Shown here in pieces: positions 2,625 to 25,992 of a DNA stretch of 34,909 nt (position 1 is its first letter; every line of letters begins with the position of its first letter). Position numbers and translations under genes: made by a program. A model generated the notes under the pieces. It did no database searches, was not told the DNA's origin, and saw nothing but the letters and a program-made list of their open reading frames with translations. Source of the stretch: an uncultured Saprospiraceae bacterium (GTDB lineage Bacteria > Bacteroidota > Bacteroidia > Chitinophagales > Saprospiraceae); NCBI GenBank assembly GCA_938002705.1, contig CALLAG010000359.1, positions 1 through 34,909 of the forward strand, in the 5' to 3' direction.

Positions 2625-5585
2625 CTATTTTACTAATAATACTTTTTGACTAATTCTTTGATTCTTATTTTGTATTTCTATTGTATACATTCCTTTTGAG
2701 TAACTGCTTAATAGTTCTGCCACAACACTGGATGCCTGCGCTCCTAATTGTGTAAGGGACTTAATCACTTCTCCTTCTGAATTTTTAATATCAATACTTA
2801 AAATTATCTCATCATAGTCAGAAAACAAGGCTTCCAATGCATTATCAGTATTAATAGATCTAGCATCTGAAGAATTATCATCTTGTATCGGCATAGGTGT
2901 ACACGGCTCTATTCGTGCTTCGAATGTCGTACCCAATATTACTTCGAATGGGTATACCAAATCAATGTCAGTACCTGCTGTAAACAAAACTGATTGTCCA
3001 CTCTCATCGATAACTGCATCCGAAGTCACATTTATCTCAGCTCTATAAGTATAATTAGTTATTGTGTTAATGACAATATAATCTCCATCACAATCTGGTG
3101 GAGGACCACAGCCCTCATCGATTATACCATCACAATTATTATCTATACCATCACACACTTCAGTATTACCGGGATAGTTATCTGCCTCTGTATCATCACA
3201 ATCTGTATTATTAGTGACATATCCTGAGGGCGGGCTACAATCTGTAACAGAACTGGTAGCGTCTCCAAATCCATCGCCATCTGTATCAGCATAATAAGTA
3301 GTCAATAACTCCTCATCTATCATGCCGTCACAATCGTTATCTATCCCATCACATACTTCTGTGTTACCAGGATAATTATCTGCTTCCATATCATCACAAT
3401 CATCACCTCCTATGACTGCACTTACACCATCCCATCCTCCTGCGTCAAATGTACATTCTACATAACCATCAGCATCATTATCTATTTCGGTATCTGGCAA
3501 TGTAGAATTACTACAGTTATTAATCTGACCATCGCATAATTCTGGTGCTCCTGGATATACAGTACTGTCACTATCATTACAATCTGTATTATCAGAAGTA
3601 TAACCAGAAGGTAATGTGCAAGCGACCAAAGTAGTATTAACATCTCCAAACCCATCAGAATCAGAATCAGCGTAGTAGGTGTTCGTTAGATTTTCATCTA
3701 TCATACCATCACAATTATTATCTACTCCATCACATACTTCTGTAGCGGCAGGGTTGATTGCTGGATTAGTGTCATCACAGTCAGTGCTGTCTATTACATA
3801 ACCTGTCGGTAGTGAGCATCCTGTAATCGAGGCTCCGATATCACCAAAAGTATCGCCGTCAGCATCTAGATAGTATATGTTACTTCCATTTTCATCTACA
3901 AGGTTATCACAATCATTGTCTATCCCATCACATACTTCTGTAGCTTCAGGATTGACAGCAGGGTTAATATCATCACAGTCATCACCTCCTACGACGCCAG
4001 CTGCACCTTTCCATCCTCCCATGTCTATAGTACATATTACAAATCCATCACTATCATCATCAAACTCAACTAAGGGTAGCGAGGTGGTATTACAATCATT
4101 AATTAATCCATCACACAACTCGGGGGCACCGGGATATATGGTAGCATCACCGTCATTACAATCCGTATTATCAAGCACAAATCCAGTCGGAGGGCTACAC
4201 GCTACCTCAGATACAGTCGAGATACCAAATCCATCTCCATCATCATCTAGATAATAAGTTGTACCAGGAGTAATAGTTACATTCTGAGTAAGGGTAATCC
4301 CATCATTGCCACCTGCATTAGTTACAAGTAATTGCGTAACTATGGTACCCGATGTACCACTCGTAGGACAGACAACAGGATTCTGATCTGTAGAACTGGT
4401 TATATTCAATACAAGATTACCACTTGTGACTGTAAACGCCCAAGTCCATGAAGTAGGTGTATTAGTAGATAGATCAGTGAACTGTATACATTCATTAGAA
4501 CAGATCGGCACACTACCTGATGGAGTAAAATCTGCAACAGGTGGAGCAATAGTACACTTACTAGATGTTGTTGTATATCCTTCTGCTACTGCTGTAGCAT
4601 ACATCACATCACTTTGATCAGAGGTAAACATATACATACAGGCGTCACCAGCATAAGACATAAAATTCATATACATATCTTCTGAACCACAAGTTTGTGG
4701 CAGGTCAGCGCAAGTGTTATCATTACAGTTAGTAAGCCCGCTATAATTAGTCGACATATTAGGCGTATCAGGAATCTGATCTTGCGATCCTCCACATCCA
4801 CTGTTATCTCCCCATATATGAAAAAGACCAAAATAATGCCCGAGTTCATGTGCTAAAGTCTCTCCTTCGTCATAGGCAGCGAAACAGCCTGCTGATCCTG
4901 TAGTCTGGACTCCTGTACAATTTATATTACCAGTACCGAAGACACAATTATCTACTAATACTCCGTCACCATTAAATTGTCCCGGGATACCATTAGATAC
5001 ACCCAGTAGTCCGCCGGCTAAGTTGTCCACATAAATATTGACATAGCCAGCCCAATCAGAATTAACAGGTGTGAAATTACCGCTCGGGACACTGAAGTTG
5101 AGTTGTCCGAAAGTAATCGCCAGATCACCATTTACTAATCCATAACCAGCAGGATGATTCTGTGTAGCTATACAGAATTCCATACATGCATCTCCTAATA
5201 TGTTAGCCCCAAAGCAGGAAGCAAAATTAGCAATCAATCCAGCATCTGAATCTAAACCCATAATCTCAAGATTCATCTCATCTATCTGATCTTGTACTAT
5301 AGTAATAACACATGCCTCCTCAGAGGGCATTACCAGTCCTGAATCAAAGTGTACGGCTACTGGTATCATCAATGGCCCAGAAGTACATGTGGGATTCTTA
5401 TCTTCTCTTCTTTGTTTTATTATAGGAGCTGTTTTACTAATCCACTCTTTTATATGATTCTTATATTCTGGATCTTCTTCCATTCTTTTCTCGTGATTCT
5501 GAATGGTACTGAGACATCTCTCCCCTTCCTGACCTGACACGTGGAGACAGATCAACATCAATAAAATCGAAAAAGTAATACGCAT
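2625..5585 (-). CDS. Secreted M43 (pappalysin-like) metallopeptidase with PKD-like region, MopE-like metal-binding repeats and T9SS C-terminal segment
   Basis: ORF 986 aa; HELGHYFGLFH zinc motif; repeated D-rich TEVCDGIDNDCDGxIDE units; C-terminal GMYTIEIQNKNQRISQKVLLVK sorting-like tail. Confidence 0.85.
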   Translation of the reverse strand: MRITFSILLMLICLHVSGQEGERCLSTIQNHEKRMEEDPEYKNHIKEWISKTAPIIKQRREDKNPTCTSGPLMIPVAVHFDSGLVMPSEEACVITIVQDQIDEMNLEIMGLDSDAGLIANFASCFGANILGDACMEFCIATQNHPAGYGLVNGDLAITFGQLNFSVPSGNFTPVNSDWAGYVNIYVDNLAGGLLGVSNGIPGQFNGDGVLVDNCVFGTGNINCTGVQTTGSAGCFAAYDEGETLAHELGHYFGLFHIWGDNSGCGGSQDQIPDTPNMSTNYSGLTNCNDNTCADLPQTCGSEDMYMNFMSYAGDACMYMFTSDQSDVMYATAVAEGYTTTSSKCTIAPPVADFTPSGSVPICSNECIQFTDLSTNTPTSWTWAFTVTSGNLVLNITSSTDQNPVVCPTSGTSGTIVTQLLVTNAGGNDGITLTQNVTITPGTTYYLDDDGDGFGISTVSEVACSPPTGFVLDNTDCNDGDATIYPGAPELCDGLINDCNTTSLPLVEFDDDSDGFVICTIDMGGWKGAAGVVGGDDCDDINPAVNPEATEVCDGIDNDCDNLVDENGSNIYYLDADGDTFGDIGASITGCSLPTGYVIDSTDCDDTNPAINPAATEVCDGVDNNCDGMIDENLTNTYYADSDSDGFGDVNTTLVACTLPSGYTSDNTDCNDSDSTVYPGAPELCDGQINNCSNSTLPDTEIDNDADGYVECTFDAGGWDGVSAVIGGDDCDDMEADNYPGNTEVCDGIDNDCDGMIDEELLTTYYADTDGDGFGDATSSVTDCSPPSGYVTNNTDCDDTEADNYPGNTEVCDGIDNNCDGIIDEGCGPPPDCDGDYIVINTITNYTYRAEINVTSDAVIDESGQSVLFTAGTDIDLVYPFEVILGTTFEARIEPCTPMPIQDDNSSDARSINTDNALEALFSDYDEIILSIDIKNSEGEVIKSLTQLGAQASSVVAELLSSYSKGMYTIEIQNKNQRISQKVLLVK
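3104..4259 (-). repeat. Intragenic MopE-like repeat array, order A-B-C-A-B-C
   Basis: Six cysteine/aspartate-rich units; about 193-aa supra-repeat present twice, boundary near 3680. Confidence 0.75.
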
Positions 5586-22945: not shown

Positions 22946-23647
22946 TTATATTGTATCAAGTATGTCAAGAACCTTGTCCCTTTTTTTTCTTGCAAGTGGT
23001 ACGGAAAATCCATTACTAAGAACAATGCTCCCATTCTTATAGCTTTTATATTCTGCCACTTTACTTAGATTAACTACATATTGATTATGTACCCGCATAA
23101 ATGGCCTCTGACCTAATAGCTCATCTATTTTCTTTAGATTGTAACTACAATGAAATCGCTCAGAATCTGTATTAAAAATCCATGTATAATTACCATCAGA
23201 TTTTATATATAAAATCTCTGAAGCATTTATATATCTAATGCCTTTAGCGTTCGGGAATTTTATTTTTATATCTTTTCTGCAGTGACAAGAGCTGGCAACT
23301 TTTACTTTCTCAATAGCATCATTCAGAAGCTCTACTTTAATGGGTTTTAATAAGTAATCAGACACTTCTGCCTTGATAGCATCGTGGGCATACTCCTTGG
23401 TATGGGATAGATAAACCACTTTCACATCTCTATCTCGTAGTGATTTTACATAAGAATATCTATTAATAGAAGGTTTGTCTACTTCCAGAAATACGACATC
23501 AAGCACATTAGACTCTGTACAGCCTATCGCATCATAGATCCCTGCATAACTACCTATTATATCAACATCATACATTGACTCATTGAGACAAGATATTATA
23601 CGAGCTATAATATTAGGATCTCTATCTATGATTAAAGCCTTAAGCAA
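22946..23647 (-). CDS. LytTR-family response regulator with a receiver lacking the canonical phospho-Asp
   Basis: ORF 233 aa; receiver-like N-terminus with FLEVDKPS, SDYLLKP; C-terminal LytTR segment ILYIKSDGNYTWIF...FMRVHNQYVVNL. Confidence 0.88.
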   Translation of the reverse strand: MLKALIIDRDPNIIARIISCLNESMYDVDIIGSYAGIYDAIGCTESNVLDVVFLEVDKPSINRYSYVKSLRDRDVKVVYLSHTKEYAHDAIKAEVSDYLLKPIKVELLNDAIEKVKVASSCHCRKDIKIKFPNAKGIRYINASEILYIKSDGNYTWIFNTDSERFHCSYNLKKIDELLGQRPFMRVHNQYVVNLSKVAEYKSYKNGSIVLSNGFSVPLARKKRDKVLDILDTI

Positions 23648-23813
23648 TTGATTAACTTATGAAGTAGTTGATGTTCTGCTAGCAATACATTGATTAATAA
23701 AACCTTTTAATCGATCCATTGATAATGATGGTTGATAGCATTAAAATTTTAAATAGCACTCTTAAATTAGAGCTACTCCCTTAGTTTGGGTCAATTTAAA
23801 ATGTTAAAACTTG

Positions 23814-23843
23814 ATGAACTGCAGCTCTGAACGGGTGAACTGC
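23814..23843 (-). promoter_or_regulatory. Candidate LytTR binding site: minus-strand GCAGTTCAC-N12-GCAGTTCAT
   Basis: Two 9-bp direct repeats (23835-23843 and 23814-23822) separated by exactly 12 bp; each fits [TA][AC][CA]GTTN[AG][TC] at 8 of 9 positions. Confidence 0.6.
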
Positions 23844-23881
23844 ATCTGAGACAGGAATTTTATAGAGAAAAAGAGACTATA

Positions 23882-24397
23882 TCACCCTATAAGTGGTCTT
23901 TCTCGACGCATTATCATAGATACGATAACACCGAATATTGATATTATAAATACACTAAACATAGAAGAAGCTATAGTTGTAGCATTGATCTCGAACATGC
24001 CCTTCATCTGGACTCTAAGCTGATCCTCTAATTCTAACTCATCTATCTCCAAGTTTTCTATCATAGCTAATTGATTCTCAACAATGATATCCATCATCCT
24101 ATCCTGCTCTTGTTCATCTATGTTTGTCAAGTATATTCCATTAGCTATTAGCGAGGAGAACATACCAGTTATTATTATCACAAGACACATTAAGAAAGCA
24201 TCTCTAAATGATACAAATCCTGAGTCTTTTCTTCTTATATAATAGATTCCCAATACACAAAAAGGGATCGCCACTACATAAACTAATATTGTTGCCTTCC
24301 ACATACCTATCGTTCCATTCAACATGGCATATCCTAAATAAAAAGACAAGGCAGCGTATAATAAGCCTATTAGAATACCCATTTTCCAATGCTTCAT
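23882..24397 (-). CDS. DUF4199-like membrane protein
   Basis: ORF 171 aa; hydrophobic segments with IYYIRRKDSGFVSFRDAFLMCLVIIITG typical of this family. Confidence 0.7.
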   Translation of the reverse strand: MKHWKMGILIGLLYAALSFYLGYAMLNGTIGMWKATILVYVVAIPFCVLGIYYIRRKDSGFVSFRDAFLMCLVIIITGMFSSLIANGIYLTNIDEQEQDRMMDIIVENQLAMIENLEIDELELEDQLRVQMKGMFEINATTIASSMFSVFIISIFGVIVSMIMRRERPLIG

Positions 24398-24399
24398 GA

Positions 24400-25992
24400 T
24401 TAATTTACTTTTAGTATTGGTAGAATATACTTACTAGTCACAAGACTATCTTTTTCTTTTATATAATTCCTTACGAGATCTATCTCGATATTATGCTCTC
24501 CTACAGCGAGATTAGACACTGGGATATTATAGATGAGCCCTTCATGACCCTGTAGATGATGCACACTGAAGTAACAAGTCAGGCTGTCATCATAGTTAAC
24601 ATTATCTACCCTTATAGACACCTGCTCCTTCATTAGATCGAGAATACGCTTCTCCTTTTTAAGCTCATATTCCGATAGTGCCTTCTTTCTTTTACTAGTA
24701 AGTTTCTTTCTCAGACCTTTGAGAGAATCCCTTTTTAGCTCTAATTCTCCTTTGAGAATCTCATCATCTTTGACAGTCTTAGCTGAATCTCTGAACATTT
24801 TGTATTCCTCGTATACGATTCTTTCATTAATCTTGAAGCTGTCCTTTAATGCAAAAAGAATAGAATCTCTCTCCTTGCCGATATCTGAAAACAAAGTAAA
24901 CTTCCATCCTGACTTATAGATGGGCATAACACCATACCTGTCCTCCATCACATTCTCATATCGTCTATTATACTTTACGAACAATTGTACGTAGGGCTCT
25001 GAGACTTTATATTGAGAAAGGCGCAAGTGACCTAAGGTCTTGTTATCACTACGCTCATCATCTTCGTAAGCATCTAATTGGATAGAGTATAGATCATCAT
25101 AGAAGTACGGATTAACAATCAGGCCTTGCTCTCTGAGGGATGAATAATCTGGTATAAATGGGGTCTTCTCATTAGAGTATATTTTAGTGAAATTAGCTAT
25201 CACAATAATGTACGGAAATGAGAAGAAGAAAAGTCTACGGGTATACTTGTCATCTATAAAATTATAGATCAATGGTCGATATAAGAATGAAAGTGTAATG
25301 TGACTATAGAACCAATATAGTGGCATATACATCTTGGAGACTGTCCTGTCCTTGATCCTCTTAATCCCACCTAATGTTACAAAATCAATGAATACAATAG
25401 CCCCTCCAAAAACATATGGGACAAACCATATAAGAAAATAGATAACACCTTCTTCAACATCAAAACCTAAAGACTTAAGAATAATGATAGGCAAAAGACT
25501 AAATACCCCGAATGCCAAAGCTGATACAAAGAAAAGAAAAAGCAAAAAGGTATAGGAGAATAATACACTACAGATCTTCTCTAATTTCTCTATGAAATCA
25601 TCATAGTCCCCTACTCGTCTTCTCAGGTACTTAGTGAAGTACTCAGAATAATTAAACTCATCGTAATCAATCTCTCCCGATACATATCGCAAGCCTATCG
25701 CTCCTATCCACAGAGATCTCAGAATTACGTGTAATAATAAATTAATAAAGAATATTCGCCACCCAATAGTCACTAACGTCTCAAGTGCAGATAGAAATAT
25801 ATTACTAGCACCCTCCAAATTATAGTTGTGGAGATCTGTTATTATACCTTTAGAATTGTATATTCCATACAATACAAAACCTGATATGATCAGCTCTAGT
25901 TGCCAGCTTTCTTGTTGTAGTTTCTCCAGCCATTCCCTAAAGATAGCCCGATCTAATCCACCAGAATATCGATTGTCTTTATTGTCAGTCAT
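24400..25992 (-). CDS. Conserved-type membrane protein, unknown function
   Basis: ORF 530 aa; several TM segments in the N-terminal half, charged C-terminal half; stop 2 nt before the next start. Confidence 0.7.
   Translation of the reverse strand: MTDNKDNRYSGGLDRAIFREWLEKLQQESWQLELIISGFVLYGIYNSKGIITDLHNYNLEGASNIFLSALETLVTIGWRIFFINLLLHVILRSLWIGAIGLRYVSGEIDYDEFNYSEYFTKYLRRRVGDYDDFIEKLEKICSVLFSYTFLLFLFFVSALAFGVFSLLPIIILKSLGFDVEEGVIYFLIWFVPYVFGGAIVFIDFVTLGGIKRIKDRTVSKMYMPLYWFYSHITLSFLYRPLIYNFIDDKYTRRLFFFSFPYIIVIANFTKIYSNEKTPFIPDYSSLREQGLIVNPYFYDDLYSIQLDAYEDDERSDNKTLGHLRLSQYKVSEPYVQLFVKYNRRYENVMEDRYGVMPIYKSGWKFTLFSDIGKERDSILFALKDSFKINERIVYEEYKMFRDSAKTVKDDEILKGELELKRDSLKGLRKKLTSKRKKALSEYELKKEKRILDLMKEQVSIRVDNVNYDDSLTCYFSVHHLQGHEGLIYNIPVSNLAVGEHNIEIDLVRNYIKEKDSLVTSKYILPILKVN

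Follow-up and report, generated by a model that had tools for sequence, protein, structure and literature searches.

LytTR-type regulators acting on direct repeats have been described in several bacteria. In E. coli, YpdB (now PyrR), a kinase-controlled LytTR-type activator that acts on a promoter other than its own, has its sites in the yhjX promoter, GGCATTTCAT-N11-GGCATTTCAT, and is constitutively active as the D53E variant; the same work states that LytTR sites share no common consensus (PMC4847170). In the LytTR Regulatory System (LRS) operons of S. mutans and the LRS-like operons of Bacteroides, direct repeats with 12-bp (11-13) gaps lie upstream of the promoter of the regulator's own operon, and positive autoregulation has been shown for S. 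mutans (PMC6193735). The LytTR protein AgrA of S. aureus, also kinase-controlled, acts at P2/P3 through direct repeats that precede poor promoters, the proximal repeats being centred near -60 (PMC4227749). Bacterial pseudo-receivers have a receiver fold that lacks the phospho-acceptor Asp; a common replacement is Glu, which has been proposed to be phosphomimetic (PMC12632262). For such sites in Bacteroidota, our literature search found only the Bacteroides LRS-like ones.

The window studied here is a stretch of 34,909 nucleotides from an uncultured Saprospiraceae bacterium. An initial annotation had placed a near-consensus LytTR operator in front of the LytTR gene and predicted autoregulation by a pseudo-receiver regulator. 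The features of the locus are the following.

22946-23647, minus strand: gene of the regulator, 233 aa, TTG start, degenerate receiver plus LytTR DNA-binding domain (Pfam PF00072, PF04397)
23657-23741, minus strand: two mini-ORFs of 14 and 20 codons, read from the sequence of the predicted leader
23762-23769, minus strand: predicted -7 element TAATTTAA of the Bacteroidota type, aligned with TAACCTTG of a sister promoter in the same genome; the operator lies 44 bp upstream of it
23792-23794, minus strand: possible but weak -33 TTG, with 22 bp between it and the -7 element, seen in the sequence and absent from the sister promoter
23814-23851, minus strand: predicted bipartite operator of 38 bp built on a direct repeat, TCTCAGATGCAGTTCACCCGTTCAGAGCTGCAGTTCAT; another intergenic site of the same genome (the sister site) agrees with it at 30/38 positions, and period-21 repeats are enriched at LytTR loci
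23815-23830, minus strand: proximal half-site TCAGAGCTGCAGTTCA, agreeing at 13/16 positions with the distal one (offset 21); its unit length was inferred by comparing the site with the sister site
23836-23851, minus strand: distal half-site TCTCAGATGCAGTTCA, with the same identity and offset and its unit length inferred in the same way
23882-24397, minus strand: gene of a DUF4199 small membrane protein, ending 30 bp before the operator (Pfam PF13858)

The window site shares with the YpdB sites the direct repeat, the 21-bp period and the half-site core GCA[T/G]TTCAT. Its half-site GCAGTTCAT is one base off the proven YpdB half-site core GCATTTCAT (PMC4847170), and the window half-site extends further 5' (TCnnAGnTGCAkTTCA). 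Both proteins can be compared at the phospho-acceptor, where the natural Glu55 of the window regulator is the same substitution as YpdB-D53E, whereas identity over the LytTR domain is only ~21% (22/103). The spacer letters CCGTTC common to the window site and yhjX are one base out of register and were taken as a coincidence.

The position of the window repeats, upstream of the promoter of the regulator gene, is like that of the LRS repeats. However, the locus has neither of the two LRS hallmarks: the DUF4199 membrane protein gene lies upstream of the repeats rather than behind them in the regulator's operon as the LRS inhibitor gene does, and the regulator carries a PF00072 domain, although degenerate, while LRS regulators have no receiver. 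In addition, LRS repeats are ~10 bp from the -35 element, compared with 19 bp from a poor TTG in the window. The arrangement also recalls AgrA at P2/P3, with a poor promoter and a proximal half-site at a comparable distance (44 bp before the -7 element), but the half-site sequence is different. As for the receiver, the window regulator resembles the bacterial pseudo-receivers and differs in being coupled to a LytTR domain, a case that the text of PMC12632262 does not mention.

The synteny of the DUF4199, 530-aa protein and regulator genes was not conserved in relatives, nor was a LytTR gene seen beside DUF4199 homologues there. The 530-aa membrane protein (24400-25992, minus strand) had no match in Pfam or NCBIfam and had relatives, with up to 46% identity, in 21/60 related genomes. 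Elsewhere in the window, near-identical repeats TACCATCACAATTATTATCTA occur at 3123-3153 and 3706-3734 within a 986-aa coding frame, and are probably repeats of the encoded protein.

The direct repeat and its sister site

Two 9-mers 12 bp apart are indeed present on the minus strand at 23843-23814 (GCAGTTCAC-CCGTTCAGAGCT-GCAGTTCAT), each agreeing with the LytTR consensus [TA][AC][CA]GTTN[AG][TC] at 8/9 positions, as had been annotated. The closeness to the consensus, in contrast, does not count as evidence when taken by itself. When both 9-mers were scored against this consensus over the whole window (score of at least 16/18, spacing of 12-13 bp), 15 pairs were found versus 14.8 +/- 4.2 in randomised sequence, so that window-wide it carries no weight. 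For the 234-bp intergenic region alone, the P value was 0.0135 for a pair of consensus matches that both have the GTT core, and 0.002 for a 9-mer recurring exactly at offset 21/22; the latter rose to 0.11 when any offset from 9 to 59 was allowed. What stands out in the site is that the same 9-mer returns two turns of the helix further on. The geometry agrees with that of LytTR-family operators, in which two repeats of ~9-11 bp, direct or inverse, are separated by 11-13 bp.

When the genus was searched for TGCAGTTCA-N12-TGCAGTTCA, allowing 3 mismatches at most, 44 matches were obtained. One of them, in the same genome (G000:C134:4792), agreed with the window at 15 of the 20 positions that the search pattern left free (P ~1.7e-5 per match by the binomial; P < 0.001 even after multiplication by 44). 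Comparison of the two sites showed that the true repeat unit exceeds the 9 bp noted earlier, with copies of ~16 bp, 13/16 identical, at a period of 21. The sister site is intergenic, ~55-80 bp upstream of the gene for a 95-aa GerE-domain orphan regulator (operator-promoter module at L114:1480-1864), and the similarity continues beyond it: downstream of the operators the two promoters have 37/74 identities in one register (shift 1; P = 0.0007), compared with 17-26 in 20 other registers. The chance rate of the consensus matches and the any-offset value given above are what a functionless chance repeat would lead one to expect, but a sister module in the same genome with a common promoter register argues against it, and we regard chance as the least likely of the explanations considered.

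The promoter proposed in the initial annotation was upheld in part. Its -7 element, TAATTTAA, is present at 23769-23762 and is matched in the sister promoter by TAACCTTG, near the published Bacteroides -7 element TATCTTTG (PMC6193735). The TTG lies at 23794-23792, 19 bp from the repeat and so close to the ~20 bp described, but it is weak and its 22 bp to the -7 element compare with 19 in published Bacteroides examples (PMC6193735). In the predicted leader, the second mini-ORF is in the frame of the regulator and its stop is 9 bases ahead of the TTG start; as judged from this layout, the two could be translationally coupled.

The genome scan suggested by the initial annotation yielded one sister site, but no broad regulon in the genome itself or in the genus. 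The exact bipartite sequence occurs once in the genome, and matches with up to 2 mismatches were fewer than in a reversed-pattern control (17 versus 35). Among 14 genus genomes the strong motif was intergenic only at the window and sister sites (control, 0). In the other genus genomes a further mismatch scan gave an excess over control, which may reflect coding sequence; a match in G004:C48 sharing CGTTC was discarded because it falls within a CorA-like coding frame. Viral contigs, plasmids and phages gave no match.

A scan of 395 family genomes for the repeat plus CGTTC rendered seven matches besides the two own sites, six of which overlap open coding frames. The seventh, in G022:C23, is the only intergenic one outside the own genome. 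It consists of two perfect period-21 pairs, GCATTTCACC-N11-GCATTTCACC and GCATTTCGCC-N11-GCATTTCGCC, located ~220-300 bp upstream of a gene whose product is a TPR protein of 674 aa ending in a LytTR domain. After this gene comes a third pair, near-perfect, and a second TPR-LytTR gene lies past one intervening gene. Since the scan was blind to gene content, this single locus constitutes independent support. In the region as a whole (L150:5350-7760), the three pairs are of GCATTTC[AG]CC.

The copies in G022 also bear on two other readings of the site. The CTGCAG and ATGCAT cores are palindromic, and a TGCA core can be read as a dyad bound by another class of regulator, such as a GerE-type protein; that the sister site precedes a GerE gene is in line with this. 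Nevertheless, the conserved feature is a 21-bp direct repeat specifically enriched at LytTR loci (see below), and the G022 copies adjoin LytTR genes and are not palindromic across the whole site, which makes a regulator of this kind improbable. The palindromic core of the direct repeat also accounts for the pairing behind a reading at the RNA level, as a hairpin or 3'-end element in the DUF4199 transcript (TGCAGTTC-9 nt-GAGCTGCA), with a predicted 8-bp stem, one G-U pair included, on the transcribed strand, mostly formable in the sister site as well. A hairpin or terminator was rejected given its ordinary fold energy (z = -1.27) and the lack of a terminator or an Rfam match; on inspection of the sequences the G022 copies do not preserve the pairing either, and we consider this reading very unlikely.

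Period-21 repeats at LytTR loci

In the non-coding DNA of ~120 LytTR loci, 55 kb in all, we counted non-tandem direct repeats (at least 10/11 identical, offsets 13-40). Offset 21 rendered 14 repeats, versus 35 over the 27 other offsets (~1.3 each). In the control loci (24.5 kb) a single repeat at offset 21 was observed, which is the sister site itself, its locus (L114) being in the control set. The 14 repeats come from 12 loci, G022 being counted three times; this locus had been brought into the count by the motif scan, and 11 repeats remain without it. Half-site sequences vary from one LytTR locus to another.

Taken together with the sister site and the YpdB-like half-site, this enrichment, rather than the consensus match, supports the reading of the window site as a LytTR-type operator. 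On these sequence comparisons we consider that reading probable, with good confidence.

The location of the repeats relative to the genes was asymmetric. In the 250 bp that follow the LytTR stop codon, 7/115 genes had a period-21 repeat, versus 1/116 upstream, and no enrichment was found upstream of the LytTR genes of relatives. Self-regulation is therefore not the norm of the family: its LytTR genes tend to carry the repeat before the next gene, whereas the window repeat precedes the regulator itself. At L073, L076, L083, L095, L167, L193 and L211, period-21 repeats occur no more than 60 bp past the stop of LytTR response-regulator genes. Repeats placed just after such genes, before the next one, probably act as operators of that neighbour, the target gene.

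The pseudo-receiver regulator and the proposed circuit

The description of the regulator as a pseudo-receiver protein proved correct. At the phospho-acceptor position it has Glu55, and at the second acidic site Arg9, both Asp in 58/58 aligned relatives; Ser81 replaces a Thr found in 56/58 and His82 an Ala found in 54/58, while Lys101 is kept. In the LytTR motif FhRhHRS, the base-contacting Ser (55/58 relatives) is Gln, the recognition residues being HRS in YpdB, HRQ in BtsR and HNQ in the window regulator. Given this Gln and the variation of the recognition residues, the DNA specificity of the protein is not predictable. No histidine kinase gene was recognised among the scanned genes neighbouring the regulator. 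The protein had no orthologue in 396 family genomes (best identities, ~36%), no match at E <= 1e-33 across 399 order genomes, and no orthologue in a search of a wider genome-contig collection.

Which LytTR protein would occupy the operator is a separate matter. The site adjoins the regulator gene, which favours binding by the gene's own product, and we give this about an even chance on the basis of the arrangement. The operator could instead be bound in trans by another LytTR protein, the pseudo-receiver gene being then a cascade target and not an autoregulator. The assembly contains at least six other LytTR genes, operators in the family usually adjoin a LytTR gene but not upstream of it, and the natural Gln at the recognition Ser points the same way; on the other hand, the gene that directly follows the site is itself a LytTR gene, and the motif was absent from all six paralogue LytTR loci of the genome that were examined. 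We regard binding in trans as possible but rather less likely. The autoregulation predicted in the initial annotation is a plausible hypothesis.

In the mechanism that we favour, two LytTR domains would bind one face of the DNA at half-sites exactly 21 bp, or two turns, apart. The operator would serve a weak Bacteroidota-type promoter, and the -7 element lies ~44 bp downstream of the proximal half-site, which would put the latter at an activator position, in agreement with the location of activator sites among LytTR-family operators. The poor -33 element is what an activator-dependent promoter would be expected to show, and from both we infer activation rather than repression. Most likely the operator would serve the regulator encoded just downstream, in an autoregulatory manner, and the 95-aa GerE-domain regulator elsewhere in the genome would be controlled by its own operator of this type; as far as the two modules indicate, sites of this type probably control both regulator genes. 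With Glu at the phospho-acceptor, a histidine kinase probably cannot switch the receiver, which may be competent constitutively; therefore, protein level or a partner would set the output. In its most complete form, the proposal is that a pseudo-receiver locked by its natural Asp-to-Glu change, next to which no kinase gene was recognised, would sustain its own autoregulatory loop and control the GerE regulator via the duplicated operator-promoter module, as a kinase-independent two-step switch; we advance it as speculative and hold it to be rather doubtful.

Operators of such geometry for LytTR proteins, autoregulation by LytTR regulators and pseudo-receivers with Glu are already known separately; the combination of these features and the two-regulator module are new instances. 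The activation and inactivation of bacterial pseudo-receivers have been described as a mystery (PMC12632262), and a promoter pair with defined operators offers a compact way to ask whether a LytTR regulator with a natural Glu in place of Asp is active constitutively. Beyond this locus, the 21-bp repeat signature beside LytTR genes provides a route to predicting operators and targets in Saprospiraceae.
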